Shown: positions 2,635-55,814 of the stretch, piece by piece
Numbering within the stretch: the stretch's first letter is position 1
How the letters are laid out: each line of letters starts with the position of its first letter
Source: Lentilactobacillus sunkii DSM 19904
GTDB lineage: Bacteria; Bacillota; Bacilli; Lactobacillales; Lactobacillaceae
Direction of reading: 5' to 3'
Assembly (NCBI RefSeq): GCF_001435575.1
Contig: NZ_AZEA01000001.1
Span: 310,001-374,000, forward strand
DNA length: 64,000 bases
Position numbers and translations under genes: made by a program
Notes under the pieces: generated by a model
What the model was told of the DNA's origin: nothing
The model's database searches: none
What the model saw: the letters and a program-made list of their open reading frames with translations, nothing else

Positions 2635-3630
2635 TTAATCCACCAGGTCCTCGGGTGTTTGACCCTCAACCATTTGTTTCAGATTTCCAAGGGAAATATC
2701 AATCATATTTTTCACTGCTTCACTGGTATGGAATGCAGAATGAGGTGTAATTAAAACGTTTGGCATCATTGAGAATTTCAAGATATCAGGGTCAGTCACT
2801 TGCTTTGTCGACCTTGAATCCTGTAAATCTGCCGATTCGTTTTCAATGGTATCGATCCCGGCTCCCGCAATTTCGCCGCTTTGAAGGGCATACATTAAAT
2901 CGTTTGTGTCCACAATCGATCCTCTTGCCGTATTAATCAATAACGCCGTATCCTTCATTTGTTCAAAAACTTCATGATTAAACTGATGATAATTATCGTC
3001 AGTCGCCGGCATGTGAATGCTGATAATATCACTCTGAGCATATATTTCGTCAAGACTCTTGACATATACATATTGTCCATTGGTTGATTTCTGTGGATAC
3101 TTGTCATAGGCAATAACGTTGGCTCCCAAACCTTTAAATAACTTAATGGCTGCCCTGCCGATTCGGCCGGTTCCAATAACGCCGACCGTTTGCTCACTGA
3201 TCAACCGCCCCATAAAGCTCGGTGAAAAGTGGTACTGATGGTTTTGATTCAATTGCTGACGCATATAACCAACTTTTCTGGATAGATACAATGCCATCAT
3301 CACAGCAAATTCAGCAATACTGTCTGGACTGTATGCCGGAACGTTGGTAATTTTAACATCATTTGATTTAGCCGCTGGTAGGTCAATGTTATCAGTTCCA
3401 ACATTTCGCAGTGAAAGATATTTAATGCCAAGGTTATTGAGTGAGTCAAACAACTCCTTGGAATATGGAATCGTCTGGAGGCAGGAAATCCCATCAAATC
3501 CGGCAGCCTCTTCAACTGTCTCTTGGTTTAAGGTCGTCGTGGTATATTTAACTTCAACTCCATGATCTTTACCCCACTTCTCAACAAATGGGATTTCATC
3601 ATCCCTGACGTTATACACGATAAATTTCAT
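2635..3630 (-). CDS. D-2-hydroxyacid dehydrogenase (D-lactate dehydrogenase family)
   Basis: 331-residue NAD-dependent enzyme that interconverts a 2-ketoacid and the D-2-hydroxyacid; pyruvate to D-lactate is the likely main reaction. The Rossmann motif GVIGTGRIGRA is near residue 150, with the catalytic Arg in RNVGTDNID (about 78), NTARGSIVD (about 233) and the catalytic His in TPHSAFHT (about 296). The pattern is that of D-LDH/D-hydroxyisocaproate dehydrogenases, and which substrate is preferred cannot be read from sequence. AGGAGG lies seven bases before the ATG. A perfect CcpA cre site lies 29 bases upstream, so carbon-catabolite control is expected. It is a single-gene unit downstream of the gal operon terminator. 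Confidence 0.9.
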   Translation of the reverse strand: MKFIVYNVRDDEIPFVEKWGKDHGVEVKYTTTTLNQETVEEAAGFDGISCLQTIPYSKELFDSLNNLGIKYLSLRNVGTDNIDLPAAKSNDVKITNVPAYSPDSIAEFAVMMALYLSRKVGYMRQQLNQNHQYHFSPSFMGRLISEQTVGVIGTGRIGRAAIKLFKGLGANVIAYDKYPQKSTNGQYVYVKSLDEIYAQSDIISIHMPATDDNYHQFNHEVFEQMKDTALLINTARGSIVDTNDLMYALQSGEIAGAGIDTIENESADLQDSRSTKQVTDPDILKFSMMPNVLITPHSAFHTSEAVKNMIDISLGNLKQMVEGQTPEDLVD

Positions 3631-3658
3631 AATTGCCTCCTAAAAGTATGATCCAAAT

Positions 3659-3674
3659 TTGTTTCCGCTTCCAT
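3659..3674 (-). promoter_or_regulatory. cre site (CcpA operator) for the D-2-hydroxyacid dehydrogenase gene
   Basis: Read on the minus strand, ATGGAAGCGGAAACAA matches the cre consensus WTGNAARCGNWWWCAW at every position. It overlaps a -10-like TAAAAT, about 30 bases upstream of the start codon. That position suits catabolite control of lactate production; the direction of the effect cannot be told. Confidence 0.8.
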
Positions 3675-3679
3675 TTTAC

Positions 3680-3729
3680 CAAAAATAAAGGATTCCACAC
3701 AAACATTCTTGTTTGCTGGAACCCTTTAT
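3680..3729 (-). terminator. Intrinsic terminator of the galKET operon
   Basis: On the minus strand AAATAAAGGGTTCCA pairs with TGGAATCCTTTATTT (one mismatch) around a loop containing CAAACAAGAATGTTTG, followed by T-rich sequence. It starts directly after the galT stop codon. Confidence 0.85.
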
Positions 3730-3731
3730 TT

Positions 3732-5198
3732 TTATTTGAGTTGATTAATGAAGCGATCAAAGGCTGCTTGGCCCTCGTCATTCCACTTATAAACACCGGC
3801 ATCTTCCAAAACTCTGCCGAAGACCTTGCCGACTTCCTCGTCAACTAACTCTTCCACATTATCTTTCGTAAAATTGTCGCGTTTCATCAATTCGTCTGCC
3901 CATGGTTTATGATAGTCAGCAATCTGATTATCTTCGCCAAGAACATACTTTTGAACTTCTTTCATTTCAGTCTTTAAACGGGCTGGCAAAATTGCCCTTC
4001 CCATTACTTCAATCAGTCCAATATTTTCCTTCTTAATATGCTGAACGTCCTTGTGAGGATGGAAAATTCCGTCAGGATACTTGTCTGAAGTCTGGTTATC
4101 ACGTAAAACGATATCCATTTCAAACTTGTCTCCGTTCATTCGAGCGATTGGTGTAACCGTGTGATGACGGGTGCCATCTGTGTATGCACGAATATCAACG
4201 GATTCATCAGAATAGTTTTTCCAGCTTTCGGCAATCTTAGTAGCTGCATTTACCACCTTATTAGCATCTTTACTGAGAAGACGAATCGTTGCCATTGGCC
4301 ATTTAACAATCCCTGCTTCCAAGCCATCGACACCAAGATCAACTGATCGGTCGATCACAGCCTTCATCATTGGGAATGTATGACGACCGCCTTGATAATG
4401 GTCTTGTGCAAGCAGCGAACCACCAACAATCGGTAAATCAGCATTACTGCCGACAAAGTAGTGTGGGAACTGCTTAATAATATCAGTCAGGTTTACAAAT
4501 GTTCGCTGATCGATGGACATTGGCACATGGGCCTGATTCAGGAAAATTGCGTGTTCACCAAAATATGCATATGGTGAGTACTGGAATCCCCATGGCTCGC
4601 CATTGATCATCATTCTGATAACCCGATGATTGCTTCTGGCAGGGTAACCCAAACGACCAAGGTAGCCTTCATTTTCAATGGCCAAAGGTCCAACAGGATA
4701 ACTGGTCGATTTAGCGCGACCGGCAGCTGCAATTGCCTTAGGGTCCTTCTCAGGCTTCGAGAGGTTGATAGTGATTTCCAAATTGCCGTAATCAGTCTTC
4801 GTTTCATACGAAATATTTTTGGCAATTGCACGAGTCTTAATGTAATCATTATCCTGACTCATGTGATAGAAATAGTTGGTTGCTTCATCAGGTGACTGCT
4901 GATACTTATTCCAGAAAATGTGATTCAGAGTTGATGGAATTGGTGTCAGAAGATCCATGAGTTGATCCTCAAGAATCTCGCGGTTGGTAATTGAATCCTC
5001 AATTTTACCATGTTCGATTGCTAACTCAACGAGGTCATTGGCCAGATCGACTGCAGAGGCATCTTGGGTTGGATCGCCAAAACCATCCCCAATCAGCCTG
5101 AAAATAAGGTTTGTCACATAAATTCGGTCAACATCTGAATATGGCGAATCGGATTTAATCGCTAAGTCAACGAATTTTTCAACTGCTGATTGATTCAT
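3732..5198 (-). CDS. galT: Galactose-1-phosphate uridylyltransferase (class II, Firmicutes type)
   Basis: Leloir-pathway enzyme that swaps UMP between UDP-glucose and galactose-1-phosphate, giving UDP-galactose and glucose-1-phosphate. At 488 residues it has the length and character of the Firmicutes class II GalT rather than the shorter E. coli type. The GGSLLAQDHYQGGRH segment (about residue 255) is the histidine-containing region typical of the family. It is the third gene of galK-galE-galT, two bases after galE, with AGGAAA upstream of its ATG, and is followed by the operon terminator. Confidence 0.96.
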   Translation of the reverse strand: MNQSAVEKFVDLAIKSDSPYSDVDRIYVTNLIFRLIGDGFGDPTQDASAVDLANDLVELAIEHGKIEDSITNREILEDQLMDLLTPIPSTLNHIFWNKYQQSPDEATNYFYHMSQDNDYIKTRAIAKNISYETKTDYGNLEITINLSKPEKDPKAIAAAGRAKSTSYPVGPLAIENEGYLGRLGYPARSNHRVIRMMINGEPWGFQYSPYAYFGEHAIFLNQAHVPMSIDQRTFVNLTDIIKQFPHYFVGSNADLPIVGGSLLAQDHYQGGRHTFPMMKAVIDRSVDLGVDGLEAGIVKWPMATIRLLSKDANKVVNAATKIAESWKNYSDESVDIRAYTDGTRHHTVTPIARMNGDKFEMDIVLRDNQTSDKYPDGIFHPHKDVQHIKKENIGLIEVMGRAILPARLKTEMKEVQKYVLGEDNQIADYHKPWADELMKRDNFTKDNVEELVDEEVGKVFGRVLEDAGVYKWNDEGQAAFDRFINQLK

Positions 5199-11389: not shown

Positions 11390-11424
11390 GAATTTCACCT
11401 CCCAAAAATATTTGTTGGGACTTA

Positions 11425-11540
11425 ATAAAAAATCCCTATGCCCACCCAGACATAGGAAAAAAGTAAGATTACTTTCCTCGGCAGGATATTAAGGCATGGA
11501 AGCCACCTGAGTCTTAGGCGAATATATCAGCAACTAACAG
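11425..11540 (-). ncRNA. L10 leader (autoregulatory 5' UTR of rplJL) with attenuator terminator
   Basis: The untranslated leader of rplJ holds the conserved Firmicutes L10-leader segment, including GGTGGCTTCC and TTAATATCCTGCCGAGG (about 11475-11510). A terminator hairpin follows at 11435-11456 (CCTATG/CATAGG) with a GATTTTTT tail. Binding of L10(L12)4 to the leader is known to promote termination in this family. Confidence 0.85.
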
Positions 11541-12405: not shown

Positions 12406-12831
12406 CTATCCTTCGACAGTAAAGCCCATGCTGCGTGCAGTACCTTCAACCATGCGCATTGCTGCTTCAACATCAGCTGCGTTTAGGTCTTTCATTTTAG
12501 TTTCGGCAATTTCTTTAACTTGGTCTTTGGTAACAGTTGCAACCTTGTTAGTATTTGGTTCGCCGGAACCCTTTTGAACACCAGCAGCTTTCTTGAGTAA
12601 CACAGCAGCAGGTGGAGTCTTGGTGATGAAGTCGAATGAACGATCTTCATACACAGTGATAACTACAGGAATAATCATCCCTGCCTGATCGGCAGTACGT
12701 GCATTAAATTCCTTAGTGAATCCCATGATGTTGATACCTGCTTGACCTAATGCAGGACCAACTGGAGGGGCAGGTGTTGCTTTGCCCGCTGGAATTTGCA
12801 ATTTAACAATATTCGCTACTTTTTTAGCCAC
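12406..12831 (-). CDS. rplK: 50S ribosomal protein L11
   Basis: 141-residue protein of the GTPase-associated centre, also needed for stringent-response RelA activation. The N-terminus shows the proline-rich switch [26 protein letters not shown]; the C-terminal RNA-binding domain carries [15 protein letters not shown]. Length is standard. AGGAGG precedes the ATG, and an extended -10 promoter lies at 12917. Confidence 0.98.
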
Positions 12832-13819: not shown

Positions 13820-14368
13820 TTAAAGGGCAGTATCAATCTGGTTAAAGTCAAGGTCGGTACTGGTTTCACGGCCAAACATCTCAATATTAACTTTCAGTCG
13901 TTGCTTCTCGTTATCGACCTCAGTCACTTTGCCATCAAGACCGGTAAAGGCGCCATCAACAATTTTGACAGTGTCGCCGATGCTGACATCCAAGTCTTCA
14001 TGACGTGAGCTCATGCCGATCCGTTTCAATACCAAGTCAACTTCATCTGGCAAAAGCGGCGTTGGCTTGCTGCCTTGGCCATGGGAACCAACGAATCCGG
14101 TTACCCCGGGAGTATTTCGAACGATGTACCAAGCTTGGTCGGTCATAATCATTTCAACTAGAACATAGCCGGGAAATGTCTTGTCCATTTTGACTTTGTC
14201 CTTACCGTTCTTAACTTCATGTTCCTCTTGTTCCGGAACAACCGTTCTGAAGATGTAATCCTGCATCCCCATTGATTCCTTCCGGCTGTCAAGGTTCATC
14301 TTAACCTTATTCTCATATCCGGAATAAGTATGCAATACGTACCATTGTTTTTCTGCTGACTCGACCAT
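13820..14368 (-). CDS. nusG: Transcription termination/antitermination factor NusG
   Basis: 182-residue elongation factor that binds RNA polymerase. The NGN domain begins EKQWYVLHTYSGYENKVK; the C-terminal KOW domain has GDTVKIVDGAFTGLDGKV (about residue 130). It follows secE as usual in Firmicutes, about 106 bases downstream, in the rpmG-secE-nusG group. Confidence 0.97.
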   Translation of the reverse strand: MVESAEKQWYVLHTYSGYENKVKMNLDSRKESMGMQDYIFRTVVPEQEEHEVKNGKDKVKMDKTFPGYVLVEMIMTDQAWYIVRNTPGVTGFVGSHGQGSKPTPLLPDEVDLVLKRIGMSSRHEDLDVSIGDTVKIVDGAFTGLDGKVTEVDNEKQRLKVNIEMFGRETSTDLDFNQIDTAL

Positions 14369-14876: not shown

Positions 14877-15434
14877 TCAATTTATCCCGCCGTTAAACTT
14901 TCGACGACAGCGTTCAAACGCATTGATGATTCCCCGTTGTTCGCTGGGATCCAAATGTGTATACCCACTTTTCTTCAACATTAACCGAAATGCTTCTTTT
15001 TCAAGTGGCGAACAGCTGCTCATCAGTTCATGAAAAGCCTCAGCGACGATTGCCGAATCAATTGGACTACTCGCAGAATTGTCGGCAATCGTTGTCGAAT
15101 AAAGATTTTCATTGGCTTCAATTGACGTCAAAGGTTCGCAGGGAACTCTTTTCTTGGCGTTATTTACCCGGATCAAGTCAAATACTTGGTTTCTAAGATT
15201 AAAGCGGTAAAACGTCCCAAAATTCACTTTCCTGGCGCGCTCAAATCGACAGGCAGATCGGTATAAAACTATCCTGGCCTCTTGATCCAAGTCCTCTTTG
15301 TCATAACCGTTGATATAATACTGTCTTTTGAACTTTCGAACAATTGGATAGTACTTTTTGAACAGTTCGGTAAAAGCATCCTCGTCCCTGTCAGCAGTCC
15401 GCTGAACCAAATTGAATGTTTCGTCTGATATCAT
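14877..15434 (-). CDS. sigH: Sigma-70 family RNA polymerase sigma factor (SigH/ComX-like)
   Basis: 185-residue alternative sigma factor. Region 2 is visible as DEDAFTELFKKYYPIVRKFKRQYY and DKEDLDQEARIVLYRSACRFE; region 4-like helices follow (SPLEKEAFRLMLKKSGYTHLD). It has the size and the chromosomal position, between rae1 and rpmG, of SigH in Bacillus and its competence-related homologues in lactobacilli. The ribosome-binding site ATGAGGGGG is unusually G-rich. No promoter of clear quality is seen in the 143 bases before it. Confidence 0.85.
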   Translation of the reverse strand: MISDETFNLVQRTADRDEDAFTELFKKYYPIVRKFKRQYYINGYDKEDLDQEARIVLYRSACRFERARKVNFGTFYRFNLRNQVFDLIRVNNAKKRVPCEPLTSIEANENLYSTTIADNSASSPIDSAIVAEAFHELMSSCSPLEKEAFRLMLKKSGYTHLDPSEQRGIINAFERCRRKFNGGIN

Positions 15435-51841: not shown

Positions 51842-52093
51842 TCACATAAATTTCTCAATTAAATAAATAATCAACGGTACAATAATTCCCGTTGCCACTA
51901 AAGAAATTAATGCATAGTTAATATGTGTAAGATTATCAATTCGATGTTCATTTTCAATAGACTTAGCCAAAGCTTTATCTGTTTTGGCATTCAAATCAGC
52001 CTGATCATTCAGCTGTTGTTTAATGGAAGAAATATCTTCTTTAATGCCAATGAGCATTTTAGTCATATTGATTTCATCAGGAACTTCCACCAT
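51842..52093 (-). CDS. XhlA-like phage lysis-accessory protein
   Basis: 83 residues: a helical coiled-coil N-terminal part (about 10-55, EDISSIKQQLNDQADLNAKTD) and a single C-terminal membrane span (INYALISLVATGIIVPLIIYLIE). This is the layout of the haemolysin XhlA family that assists holin/endolysin lysis. Its ATG overlaps the endolysin stop (TAATG). In most related phages XhlA precedes the holin; here it is the last gene before the prophage end. Confidence 0.75.
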   Translation of the reverse strand: MVEVPDEINMTKMLIGIKEDISSIKQQLNDQADLNAKTDKALAKSIENEHRIDNLTHINYALISLVATGIIVPLIIYLIEKFM

Positions 52094-52917
52094 TACTTAT
52101 CACCAGCCTTTACTGCAAAAATAAATTTAACTTTATCTTTGTTTGCTGTATAGTAACCAGTCGGTGTAGAAAGTCGATAAATTTTACCATATTTTATTGG
52201 GGTAGCATAGAATCGACTTCCTTTAATCAGACGGGTATGCCGTTTTGACTTGAATTCAGCATCGTTAAATTGGTGAATTACGCTTTGTGTTACTTCGTAT
52301 AGGCCTGGCATTTGATAATATTCCGGTTTTGCAGGCTTAATAACTATCCCACTTCCGGACAGTGAACCATCAAAATCTAAACTGGCGTCAACACCTAATC
52401 CATTATAGTTATCGGTATATTGCCAGGCATTCGCATTATCAATTCCCGGTTGACTAACACCATACGCCGCTACCCAAATATGCTTATCAATAAGTTTCGC
52501 TCGATCAATTCGCTTTTCAGCAAACCATGAACCGGATCCATAAGTAATAACGTTGGTAAATCCGTTGGCTTTTAACTCCTTTAAAAAGGCATTTACTTCA
52601 GCTGTGGTCTTCCAAGGAAGGTCTTGTGCTTCCACATCTAGGGCCAAGACTGTGGATTTATCCAACCCAAAGCTTTTTACCCAAGCTAAGAAATACTTAG
52701 CTTCTGATGAACCATGACCATGAAAGAAATGATAAACACTCACAGTACCAAATACTTTGAATCCGTTAGCCACTTGTTCTCTAGCTTTAGGGTTAATGTA
52801 TCCAGTGCCTTCAGTTAATTTAGCAACTATGGAGTCAATTCCATGGCTTTTTAAAGATCTCATATAGGCCTCAGAACTGCCTTGATACGCAGACAAATCA
52901 GCAACCTTTTTAGTCAT
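52093..52917 (-). CDS. Phage endolysin, GH25 muramidase
   Basis: Degrades peptidoglycan glycan strands for host lysis. The GH25 domain covers about residues 1-195: VADLSAYQG with the first catalytic Asp, STVLALDVEAQDLP with the DxE pair, and DASLDFDGSL. A C-terminal SH3-like wall-binding region follows (about 205-274). No signal peptide is present, so it depends on the holin. The ATG at 52917 has AGGAG nine bases upstream; two earlier Met codons are too close. It lies 12 bases after the holin. Confidence 0.92.
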   Translation of the reverse strand: MTKKVADLSAYQGSSEAYMRSLKSHGIDSIVAKLTEGTGYINPKAREQVANGFKVFGTVSVYHFFHGHGSSEAKYFLAWVKSFGLDKSTVLALDVEAQDLPWKTTAEVNAFLKELKANGFTNVITYGSGSWFAEKRIDRAKLIDKHIWVAAYGVSQPGIDNANAWQYTDNYNGLGVDASLDFDGSLSGSGIVIKPAKPEYYQMPGLYEVTQSVIHQFNDAEFKSKRHTRLIKGSRFYATPIKYGKIYRLSTPTGYYTANKDKVKFIFAVKAGDK

Positions 52918-52929
52918 TTTCATCATCTC

Positions 52930-53397
52930 CTACTTTTGTTCAGATGATTGGGGTTCTTTAAATACTTCCGGATCGTCATCGACTGGAACGTCGGGTGTAA
53001 CGTCATTTGTATGCGCCGGAGTAACAGGTGCTTTGTGATTATCTCCCTTTAGAGTGTGTTTATAATACTGGTAAGCTTGTTCTGCTAATCCTTCAATTGT
53101 TTCTGCTTTAAAATTAAAGCCGGACTCTTTTAAGCCAGAATCAATAAATTGGTTAACCGCCTTTTTGCGATCTGAGTTACTTAAAGCAGGCATACTTGCC
53201 ACCACAGGAACGAAAGCATTCGCTAATTTCAAGCCTAATTCCATCCCTTGCTTGATATGAGTATTCTTTTCAGTTTTAATTTTAGCTTCAATCAACGGTT
53301 TAACCAATTTGTAAGTTGCTGGAATTACAGCAATTAAAAAAGCAACCAATCCGGTTGCTTTAAAGGAATTTAAAATATTTAATATTTGTGTATACAT
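52930..53397 (-). CDS. Phage holin, LLH-type
   Basis: 155 residues: one N-terminal membrane span (ATGLVAFLIAVIPATYKLVK, about 15-35), an amphipathic basic/helical middle and an acidic, Pro-rich tail (TPDVPVDDDPEVFKEP). The layout fits the LLH-family holins of Lactobacillus phages. The ATG at 53397 has TGGAGG eight bases upstream. The frame is open for 20 more codons to a TTG, which would add a basic N-terminus, but that start has no ribosome-binding site and lies in the terminator region. Confidence 0.82.
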   Translation of the reverse strand: MYTQILNILNSFKATGLVAFLIAVIPATYKLVKPLIEAKIKTEKNTHIKQGMELGLKLANAFVPVVASMPALSNSDRKKAVNQFIDSGLKESGFNFKAETIEGLAEQAYQYYKHTLKGDNHKAPVTPAHTNDVTPDVPVDDDPEVFKEPQSSEQK

Positions 53398-53421
53398 AAG
53401 ACAACCTCCATAAAATTTGTG

Positions 53422-53452
53422 TAAAAGAAAACGCCCCGCTTTAAAGGGCGTC
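53422..53452 (-). terminator. Terminator in the holin leader
   Basis: Minus strand: ACGCCC and GGGCGT enclose TTTAAAGCG, followed by TTTCTTTT. It lies 25 bases upstream of the holin ATG and downstream of a strong promoter, so it can act as an attenuator. Confidence 0.78.
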
Positions 53453-53479
53453 CTCAATTCTTATCATATTGAAGAACAT
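53441..53479 (-). CDS. Putative 12-residue leader peptide ahead of the holin
   Basis: MFFNMIRIEDAL, preceded by AAGGA at six bases. Its stop codon is in the loop of the 53422 terminator and its last codons form the 5' arm of that stem, so a translating ribosome would cover the hairpin. Translation is not proven; reading frames this short arise by chance. Confidence 0.35.
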   Translation of the reverse strand: MFFNMIRIEDAL

Positions 53480-53516
53480 GAAATTCCTTCTTGGAGGAAT
53501 GGAATTCCACAAACGC

Positions 53517-53545
53517 ATTGTATCACGATTATATAGTCGTAACAA
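53517..53545 (-). promoter_or_regulatory. Promoter of the lysis leader
   Basis: TTGTTA (53540-53545), exactly 17 bases, then TGA-TACAAT (-10 at 53517-53522) on the minus strand. It lies directly after the terminator of the upstream small-RNA unit. Confidence 0.72.
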
Positions 53546-53550
53546 CTAAT

Positions 53551-53589
53551 TATTAAAAACAAACACGCCCATCTTATGACGGGCGTGTA
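53551..53589 (-). terminator. Terminator of small-RNA unit R1
   Basis: Minus strand: ACACGCCC and GGGCGTGT form a perfect 8-bp stem around a ten-base loop, followed by TTGTTTTTAAT. Confidence 0.82.
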
Positions 53590-53688
53590 TACATCAGATA
53601 CATTGAGGGGAATGTATGAGTATGGGACATTCATAAATGCTCAGATGAATGTTGGAATGCGTAGGCACTAAAGGGGTTAATGCCTACG
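53551..53688 (-). ncRNA. Structured phage small RNA candidate R1 (four stem-loops)
   Basis: About 135 nt on the minus strand with four consecutive perfect hairpins: CGTAGGCA/TGCCTACG (13-nt loop containing ACCCCTTT), ACATTCAT/ATGAATGT (10-nt loop), ATACATT/AATGTAT (loop CCCCTC) and the terminator ACACGCCC/GGGCGTGT. An extended -10 promoter (53695-53703) would start transcription at the foot of the first hairpin. No reading frame of note. Two C-rich loops could pair with Shine-Dalgarno-like G-rich sites; that role is inference. Confidence 0.6.
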
Positions 53689-53694
53689 AAAATG

Positions 53695-53703
53695 ATTATA
53701 CCA
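53695..53703 (-). promoter_or_regulatory. Extended -10 promoter of small-RNA unit R1
   Basis: TGG-TATAAT on the minus strand, seven bases before the first hairpin of R1. No good -35. Confidence 0.55.
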
Positions 53704-53791
53704 CTGTTCCAAAAAAGTGACGGACTTTAATTTAATTAAACTTGCATTCCAAAAAAACGTCTACATGTGAGTGTACTCAACTGACCGTCAA

Positions 53792-53896
53792 TTAAGAAGC
53801 AGTTGATGAATTTTCCACCCCTGTGTCATAATTCTTACCAGTAATATCAGTAAACTGATCTTTTGTTAATTCATTCCAACCAATAACAAGTGACAA
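53792..53896 (-). pseudogene. Remnant of an XkdX-like small tail protein (C-terminal part)
   Basis: A 34-codon frame from a TTG contains VIGWNELTKDQFTDITGKNY, which matches the conserved end of XkdX-family small phage proteins (W-x-E-[IL]-T-x-[ED]-Q-[FY]-x-x-I-T-G). The usual N-terminal half is absent and the start has only a weak ribosome-binding site, so it looks like a fragment left in a different frame from the small gene that overlaps it upstream. Confidence 0.4.
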
Positions 53897-53999
53897 TTTT
53901 ATTTTTCCACAGTGTCTTAACAAGCTTAAGCAGTACCATAAAAACAACTGCACCGGTTACTTGTAATGAATTGAATGATTTTAATAATTCGTTTAACAT
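53871..53999 (-). CDS. Small holin-like membrane peptide, possibly truncated
   Basis: 42 residues, MLNELLKSFNSLQVTGAVVF and on, with one hydrophobic segment. Its first 25 residues resemble the N-terminus of the holin at 52930-53397 (LNxLxSFxxTGxVxF). AAGGAAG lies ten bases before the ATG, 21 bases after the preceding baseplate gene. It overlaps the XkdX-like fragment in another frame; a fused and frameshifted relic is as likely as a working gene. Confidence 0.45.
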   Translation of the reverse strand: MLNELLKSFNSLQVTGAVVFMVLLKLVKTLWKNKIVTCYWLE

Positions 54000-54020
54000 A
54001 AGTTTTTATCTTCCTTTATT

Positions 54021-55814
54021 TTATAAGCGATCCAATGGATAAACAATATTTACAGAAAGTGGTGTCGCGTTATTTTCAACACTTATTAATAGGCTGCCCT
54101 CATTTCTCACCATCTGATTCCCCCAATCATTAAAAGCCCAAAAACCAGATGACGTTTGATGCATTAATTCCGGACTGCTACCAAGAGTTTTAAAAGTCTT
54201 TTTAAAATCTGGATAAGCGGTGTAAAGATTAAAAATAACAGCTTCTGATACCGTAGCCCCATAAAAATAACCGTAGTAATACAGTATGTCATTATAAATA
54301 CGCCATCCGGTTGCTTCGTTACAGCCATGTGGGCCCATCGTGTTCGTTGATTGATAATTAGTCACAACCCAAGGTGTTGTTAGTTTGTCACCACCACCTG
54401 TGCTAACATCTTTACCATTAACTTGTAAGCCAGCTGTAAAGTTTGCTAACTTTGTAGTATTTGCCATGTTTGCTGTTGCAGTGTTCACTGCACTGCTTAC
54501 ATCTGACGTAGTTGCCACATCAATTCCAGACTTTTGAAGTTTTCCTGTAAAATTGGCATCCTTAGTTGTATCCGCAAGTGTTGATGGGACTGCTGGTACA
54601 CCATCTTTAGTGATATATGGATTACCCGTTGTTTTATCAATTGGCGCAGTATCAAAAGTATTTTTACCCGTAAACTCCTGATCTGAACCCGTTCGTGCTA
54701 GGTCACTTGGCAAACTGCTTGCTAGTAATAACGGATTATTATTAACAGTTGGAACGGTATCAAAGTTGTTAGCACCAGATAGGTGGGCAACTTTGGAATC
54801 ATCAGCAGGTGTGTAACCAATTTTATCTTGTTTGGCGTTAACTTCTTCAATCCCGGCTACATCACTTGCTGGTTTACGCATATCAGTAACATTAACTTTA
54901 GTGTTTAAAGCATTGTTCATATCAGCCACTTTTACATAATCAGCTAAATTAGGCGTAATGCTTCCCATGTTTTGCCATGAACCATCTATCCAGATATATA
55001 AGTCTGTTCCAACTAAGTAACCATCACCCTGGTTGTTACCCGTTGTGGGTAAATTTTCCTCTTTATCAGCTTTCCCCCTAACAACCAAACCATTTCCTTG
55101 TTTTCCTTGTGGTCCCACTGGTCCAATTGGTCCCTGACTACCAGTATCACCTCGGCTGGAAACAAAATTAATTTCTTTAGTAGTCCCGTCATCGTAGGTA
55201 AAAATAATTTTAGTCCACAGATAAGGAAGTTGATCAGTTGTTGCCAAAATAGTATCTGACCAGCCCCCTGTGGGAACTGTAACTGGTGAATCACTTAACT
55301 GATACTGATTGTTGGCAGACTTAATACCATTACCAGGGTTACCTTGGTCACCCTTATGCACATTTTGAACTGCATTCTCCATTTGGCTACTTAGATCATC
55401 AAATTGTTGCTGAAAATCATTCAAAGTGATTGTCGGAATTACTTCACCAGTATCACTCATTAGGTTCTCTTCAATTGAAAAGCCTAATGTACCATCACTT
55501 GGAAAGATGGCCTGCGTACCATCATTCATAGTAACCCAAACTTCAATATCATAATCATCTGGAACCAATGTGTTCATGATATCCTGATTAATTGGAAAGC
55601 TTAGTGTTCCACCAAGCGGACTAGTTACAGTGGTTAAATCAATAGCTTCTTGCATGATATATCCATCGTCATTAGCTATTTTAACCAGAATTGACTTAGC
55701 ATTAGTTAAATCAAAGGCCACCCCGTCGGCCGTGAGTGCCAGATTAAAAGCAGTGGTTGTATCTAAATATTTAACCACATCATTATCATCCGTGAATGCG
55801 AGCTCCTTACTCAT
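54021..55814 (-). CDS. Phage baseplate/receptor-binding protein (BppU-like N-terminus, collagen-like segment)
   Basis: 597 residues. The N-terminal about 120 residues resemble the BppU upper-baseplate domain that docks on the tail tip (ending FPSDGTLGFSIEENL). A short collagen-like Gly-x-y stretch (GPIGPVGPQGKQG) lies near 240, a carbohydrate-module-like WIDGSWQNMGS near 280, then repeated segments (NNFDTVPTVNNNPLL, NTFDTAPIDKTTGNP, ANFTGKLQKSGIDV, ANFTAGLQVNGKDV) and a beta-rich C-terminal head (about 490-597). It probably binds host wall polysaccharide. It overlaps the preceding small gene by eight bases. Confidence 0.78.
   Translation of the reverse strand: MSKELAFTDDNDVVKYLDTTTAFNLALTADGVAFDLTNAKSILVKIANDDGYIMQEAIDLTTVTSPLGGTLSFPINQDIMNTLVPDDYDIEVWVTMNDGTQAIFPSDGTLGFSIEENLMSDTGEVIPTITLNDFQQQFDDLSSQMENAVQNVHKGDQGNPGNGIKSANNQYQLSDSPVTVPTGGWSDTILATTDQLPYLWTKIIFTYDDGTTKEINFVSSRGDTGSQGPIGPVGPQGKQGNGLVVRGKADKEENLPTTGNNQGDGYLVGTDLYIWIDGSWQNMGSITPNLADYVKVADMNNALNTKVNVTDMRKPASDVAGIEEVNAKQDKIGYTPADDSKVAHLSGANNFDTVPTVNNNPLLLASSLPSDLARTGSDQEFTGKNTFDTAPIDKTTGNPYITKDGVPAVPSTLADTTKDANFTGKLQKSGIDVATTSDVSSAVNTATANMANTTKLANFTAGLQVNGKDVSTGGGDKLTTPWVVTNYQSTNTMGPHGCNEATGWRIYNDILYYYGYFYGATVSEAVIFNLYTAYPDFKKTFKTLGSSPELMHQTSSGFWAFNDWGNQMVRNEGSLLISVENNATPLSVNIVYPLDRL

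Follow-up and report, generated by a model that had tools for sequence, protein, structure and literature searches.

Introduction

LhrC1–5 of Listeria monocytogenes are described as five chromosomal copies of a stress-induced small RNA (sRNA) ending in an intrinsic terminator. They are poor in G and contact Shine–Dalgarno (SD) sequences through redundant CU-rich motifs of the UCCC type, located in a loop, a linker and the terminator loop (PMC4132741). The same account places C-rich loop motifs that contact SD sequences in LhrC, RsaE, SprD, RNAIII and FsrA of low-GC Gram-positive bacteria (PMC4132741).

The RNA considered here, RNA1, lies in a stretch of 64 000 nucleotides from Lentilactobacillus sunkii DSM 19904 (the window). 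It belongs to a Lentilactobacillus prophage, where it has the tail gene XkdX on one side and the holin gene on the other. As far as LhrC has been described, RNA1 and its relatives resemble it in their multiple copies, their scarcity of G, their redundant C-rich loop motifs and their intrinsic terminators. They differ from it in being carried by prophages, in the strong divergence of the units, in forming rows with as many as about ten model matches, in having three or four hairpins with CCCC loops and in having no match in Rfam. Rfam includes an LhrC model, and homology to LhrC was not found with Rfam at the gathering score. By analogy of design, the RNA1 family would most likely work in the manner of LhrC-type sRNAs. 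SprD and the other sRNAs with UCCC motifs share the type of C-rich, SD-contacting motif, and SprD is also located on a mobile element, but in the published description it is a single RNA with a known target and without a row of units.

CsrB titrates CsrA through GGA loops. The repetition of a loop motif over many hairpins recalls the CsrB/CsrC sponges, but the motif of the RNA1 family is CCCC rather than GGA, its units are terminated separately and it has no known binding protein. GOLLD and ROOL are phage-associated RNAs. Like the RNA1 family they are non-coding RNAs of phages, also found in Lactobacillales. GOLLD and ROOL, whose structures are the subject of PMC12286853, are large, single and ornate RNAs. 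The units considered here consist of simple hairpins and span about 90–140 nt. None of the titles listed in searches of the open PMC library describes an RNA family of this kind, and RNA1 apparently belongs to an undescribed sRNA family.

Structure and setting of RNA1

The original prediction was of a single sRNA, occupying positions 53551–53703 on the minus strand and equipped with a promoter and a terminator of its own. Its sequence and coordinates are correct and the gene structure stands, but RNA1 is one unit of a larger family. As shown in Table 1, the TGG-TATAAT element and the feet of all four hairpins are located where they had been placed, and the last hairpin, followed by a U-rich tail, is an intrinsic terminator as proposed. 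The stems had been given as 7–8 bp; this holds for hairpin 2, whereas in the minimum free-energy (MFE) fold hairpins 1 and 4 are longer and the core of hairpin 3 is shorter. The −35 box matches at only three of six positions, and for this reason we class the promoter as the extended −10 type, from which transcription would start near position 53688 on the minus strand.

Table 1. Features of the RNA1 region of the window
Feature	Position	Strand	Evidence or remark
RNA1 extended −10 promoter, TGG-TATAAT	53695–53703	−	Kept in nine aligned close-clade sequences and in most of 40 units
RNA1 hairpin 1, 12 bp, loop CCCCU (C-run in AACCCCUUU)	53660–53688	−	MFE
RNA1 hairpin 2, 8 bp, loop not C-rich	53627–53652	−	MFE
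RNA1 hairpin 3, 6 bp core inside a longer stem, loop UCCCCUCA	53598–53617	−	MFE
RNA1 intrinsic terminator: hairpin 4 (53563–53588, 11 bp) and U-rich tail	53551–53588	−	MFE, terminator scan
RNA2 (probable unit)	about 53422–53522	−	−10 box TACAAT (53517–53522); directly before the holin
RNA2 hairpin, CCUCC in loop	about 53478–53510	−	Fold
RNA2 terminator, just before the holin ribosome-binding site	about 53429–53453	−	Terminator scan
Tail-fibre-like gene	54021–55814		Upstream of RNA1
XkdX-like tail frame, gene start replaced	53792–53953	−	Upstream; PF09693, 24.4 bits, residues 18–42 of 53
Holin (LLH type)	52930–53397	−	Downstream; phrog_2609, E = 5.8e-31; PF09682 below cut-off
GH25 endolysin	52093–52926	−	Downstream; profile matches

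The hairpins had been judged unlikely to arise by chance, and the folding energies bear this out. The 153 bases of 53551–53703 fold with −47.8 kcal/mol, compared with a mean of −25.4 kcal/mol (standard deviation 3.3) for 200 shuffled sequences, none of which was equally stable (z = −6.72); for 53563–53690 alone the z score is −8.08, again with none of 200 shuffles equally stable. The four Cs in the loop of hairpin 1, which corresponds to helix 1 of the family model, are kept in nine sequences of the close clade, and the loop of hairpin 3 has no change within that clade. The outer pair of hairpin 2 is missing from some close relatives. A loop of the hairpin 3 type recurs in units of L. farraginis and L. 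parafarraginis despite different stems. A 56-codon frame (53464–53634, minus strand) overlaps RNA1 mechanically. Taken with the comparative evidence presented below, these features make it very probable that RNA1 is a genuine structured RNA gene.

Between RNA1 and the holin lies RNA2, whose fold has a z score of −4.08 (about 53422–53513, minus strand). It matches the two family models weakly, R1 with E = 0.19 and R2 with E = 0.0077 over a stretch that extends into the holin gene, and is probably a second unit of the same kind. An XhlA-like protein is also encoded downstream of RNA1. On the upstream side (53792–54015, minus strand), a short frame similar to a small membrane protein takes the place of the front of XkdX, an arrangement also present in locus L030; in locus L007 the XkdX relative is intact, with 58 amino acids.

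Copies of RNA1 with 90–96% identity are present in five of the 23 other genomes of the genus that were searched (six of 24 when its own genome is counted), in one plasmid-labelled record and in the viral contigs L022–L025. The plasmid-labelled record of L007 (NZ_CP043613.1) carries its prophage beside proC, nadE and nicotinate phosphoribosyltransferase genes of chromosomal type and may be a piece of chromosome. All seven of the named genome loci with a close holin are from Lentilactobacillus. In phage records the sole near relative at the DNA level is one Providencia phage, which matches over 43 bases and is present in two records.

Family models and distribution

RNA1 had been said to resemble no known RNA family, and Rfam 15 agrees, with no match to RNA1 at the gathering score; in the window it yields only the L10 leader and three tRNAs, all of them elsewhere. 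The leader (11418–11536, minus strand; RF00557) is an ordinary L10 ribosomal-protein leader. When positions 53400–53800 were searched with E up to 10, four matches were obtained, all far below threshold. The best of these, GibS (27 of 115 bits) and GcvB (19.7 of 42 bits), cover RNA2, or RNA2 together with the RNA1 terminator. A sequence-pattern search of the window also gave no match.

Nine units from other prophages, aligned with MAFFT without structure, went into model R1; the RNA of the window was excluded. Model R1 nevertheless finds RNA1, with 44.7 bits and E = 3.7e-5, in a search set of 229 kb from 33 partly overlapping sources; 18 of these sources have no match at E = 1. The few matches on the wrong strand have E values of 0.29–0.75. 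RNA1 also follows the family plan in its extended −10 promoter, C-rich loops, final terminator and position between tail and lysis genes.

Significant family matches come almost only from Lentilactobacillus. With R1, eight of 397 genomes of the family Lactobacillaceae match at E = 0.01, seven of them from the genus of the window and one (G303, E = 0.0036) from another genus; none of the 20 other-genus genomes with such a holin is among the matches of this search. With R2, two of 395 genomes of the order match at E = 0.001, both from the genus of the window, in a set that samples the order evenly and so includes few genomes of the genus. Both searches used stricter filters, at which weak matches are lost. 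Among 24 genomes of the genus, R2 matches 13 at E = 0.01 and R1 matches 11 at E = 0.1, the latter missing the copy of the window itself. Viral-contig loci were also collected with a second pattern; eight of 13 (L135–L137 and L139–L143) were not matched by R1 at E = 0.05, look like chance and were set aside. The matches in L119–L123 are weak, and that in L123 suggests chance since both strands match.

Rows of units in related prophages

RNA1 was at one stage regarded as a lone, isolated RNA, a reading that was dropped once the regions upstream of the holin in its relatives showed rows of such units. In L. parafarraginis and L. farraginis prophages, the RNA upstream of the holin has other stems but the same plan, with CCCCUCA and CCCCCA loops. 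In an L. hilgardii-type prophage (L079), 3193 bases without an open reading frame (ORF) of 80 amino acids separate the tail gene from the holin. This row holds 14 strong terminators in the sense direction and none in the antisense direction, compared with an average of 0.25 and at most two in shuffled sequences; a strict promoter rule gives seven sense and one antisense promoter, compared with an average of 1.85 and at most five. The sense/antisense terminator counts are 11/0 in L114, 6/0 in L080, 4/0 in L081 and 2/0 in the window, and the shuffled averages are at most 0.35 across all five regions. Two control regions of late genes (10.0 and 9.2 kb) contain two terminators each.

At E = 0.1, R2 has ten sense-strand matches in the L079 row, eight in L114 and seven in L080, counts that are partly circular in that nine, six and two of these matches, respectively, were used in training R2; there is one antisense match inside the L079 row (E = 0.033). 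R1, the training set of which included four units from L079 and one from L080, has nine matches in L079 at E = 0.05 or better. A blastn search of the phage and plasmid collections with the 3.2 kb L079 row gave no match at E = 0.001. Two stretches of this row (12578–12731 and about 13900–13990) hold units that depart from the plan, for example one in which a long-range GGGGUUAC/GUAACCCC stem forms the closure, and these may represent a second unit type. In L080, two transposase-like frames (2722–3870) lie within the row, with model matches on either side.

The units are not a constant companion of the holin. By comparison of coordinates, 15 of 27 holin places in genomes of the genus are preceded within about 1 kb by an R2 match (E = 0.01), and 12 have none. 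The L033/L044 prophage, in which the holin is 91% identical, has a terminator alone before this gene and no unit; L044, which like L079 comes from genome G007, is the same DNA as the L. hilgardii locus L033 over the stretch compared. Units also precede lysis genes of other types: the order in L116 is tail genes, unit, PNPOx-like gene, a gene of unassigned function and a Hol118-type holin. In contig G001:C1 two units on the same strand, at 283159 and 295232, lie 12 kb apart. The lysis genes next to one are not of the type found next to the other, as though two adjoining prophages, or a prophage and a remnant, were present.

Conservation of stems and loops

Covariation in relatives had been proposed as a check on the stems, and two-sided changes that keep pairing were found in alignments of nine and of 40 units. 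In the nine-unit alignment, which was made without structure, 17 of the 31 predicted pairs have at least one such change. The larger set was limited to E = 1e-4 and comprises 40 distinct units; their 20 sources were chosen, so that duplicates were avoided, out of 43 that had been searched. In this set 94.1% of cells are paired, compared with 80.3% after shuffling and 29–44% when the sequences are slid; two-sided changes occur at 23 of 31 pairs and in 167 cells, compared with 17.4 and 47.7 in shuffles, none of 500 of which was equally high. These counts lean upward because the alignment was fitted to the three helices of the model, and the cells are not independent events. With a further, hand-drawn helix, itself the weakest (76.4% paired), the values become 90.2%, 31 of 42 pairs and 197 cells. 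Fold z scores are below −2 for 36 of the 40 units, and most of the 40 share the promoter-type element. Comparison of the orthologous rows of L079 and L131 (96.7% identical) gives weak support for stems and C-runs being kept: six of 18 changed pairs are broken, compared with 8.6 by random placement (P = 0.039), and none of 58 C-run positions is substituted.

The C-rich loops that had been noted in RNA1 hold across the whole family. C makes up 46.5% and G 4.4% of the apical loops in the 40 units, compared with 24.4% and 6.2% in shuffled units, and 36 of the 40 have CCCC in a loop when the closing pair is counted. Over whole units there are 109 overlapping CCCC words, compared with 9.9 in letter shuffles (at most 26), and GGGG is absent from all 40. 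The general anti-SD word CCUCC is rare, at two of 148 loops, which counts against a role in SD blocking.

Proposed function

In our view, held at roughly even confidence, the RNA1 family consists of trans-acting prophage sRNAs that block the G-rich SD sites of selected mRNAs. This reading is taken as the most likely because the units share the design of UCCC-motif sRNAs such as LhrC. RNA1 would accordingly be expected to be transcribed, to act in trans and to pair with SD sequences, with host mRNAs as putative targets; its position alone hints at a role in lysis. Each unit would be transcribed on its own, from an extended −10 promoter of host type, and comprises two to four hairpins, of which the last is the terminator. 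Selection preserves base pairing in the stems and keeps the loops CCCC-type, with almost no G. The C-rich loops would make the first contact with G-rich SD sequences of the AGGGG or GAGGGG type in selected mRNAs, translation would be blocked and the prophage would thereby exert RNA-based control over its host. As units duplicate and diverge, their dose would increase and more targets would come within reach.

The repetition of one loop word over the hairpins of a unit and over many units, with stem sequence left free, would suit a protein sponge, in which the CCCC-type loops titrate a single RNA-binding protein of host or phage and rows add binding sites. We consider this unlikely, as no protein is known to bind such loops, each unit has its own promoter and terminator, and the window holds only one or two units. 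Less probable still is control of lysis in cis, with inert RNAs whose promoters and terminators meter late transcription into the lysis genes. The units do precede lysis genes, and a terminator lies just before the holin, at the same place even in the unit-less L033/L044 prophage, but metering leaves the kept loop sequence, the stem covariation and the rows of ten model matches unexplained.

The varying number of units, their divergence and their accessory-gene position would fit a counter-defence or decoy RNA directed at a system of the host or a rival phage, such as one imitating an RNA antitoxin; we regard this as improbable, given that no likeness to a known RNA family was found in Rfam. 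Chance hairpins or a decayed, functionless remnant would agree with the stem changes in the close clade of the window, which are few and mostly one-sided, but the fold, the independent model match, the covariation, the loop bias and the strand-specific terminators make this explanation very hard to credit.

Beyond the proposed SD-blocking sRNAs, we tentatively suggest, with somewhat less than even confidence, that some prophages carry an RNA-only accessory island at the tail/lysis junction: about ten diverged sRNA genes that would reprogram the host or fend off rivals through a code of CCCC loops. Its separately promoted and terminated units would grow in number and be reshuffled like a gene family. 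Three kilobases without an ORF of 80 amino acids, full of sRNA units, are unexpected in a late region because phage genomes are compact. Should host mRNAs prove to be targets of these RNAs, lysogenic conversion would here be achieved by RNA alone, in harmless food bacteria. The family also bears on a suggestion published for a lytic Listeria phage, according to which selection in phages could act against motifs of the UCCC type (PMC12282133). Annotation centred on proteins passes over such units, and other phages may carry similar rows at the same junction.

Pairing of the loops was compared over 245 gene starts from the window and 200 kb of its own contig, called by a program that favours starts with an SD sequence. 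The hairpin 1 loop scored 47, compared with 31.3 for letter-shuffled oligonucleotides (13 of 100 equally high), and the hairpin 3 loop 62, compared with 54.3 (31 of 100). In these gene starts a sequence-specific SD match of the RNA1 loops is not apparent, their pairing being no better than that of the shuffled oligonucleotides. The RNA2 loop scored 72, compared with 11.9 (none of 100). Prophage genes show no clear avoidance of GGGG sites, with 15 of 191 compared with 25 of 191 for the host (p = 0.13), which also speaks against the SD-blocking reading.

A GAGGGG at the ribosome-binding site of sigH had been put forward as a candidate target; it is present before the sigma-factor-like gene 14877–15434 (minus strand), which among the 245 gene starts ties for the best hairpin 3 match (−15.8 kcal/mol). 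The repressor-like gene of the same prophage is a possible target of the CCCCUC loop; its GGAGGGG site has a predicted pairing energy of −12.2 kcal/mol, not outstanding among the gene starts compared. Around 6170–6200 of L162 this gene has AAGGAGGGGC before a TTG start, with a TGCTATAAT promoter nearby.
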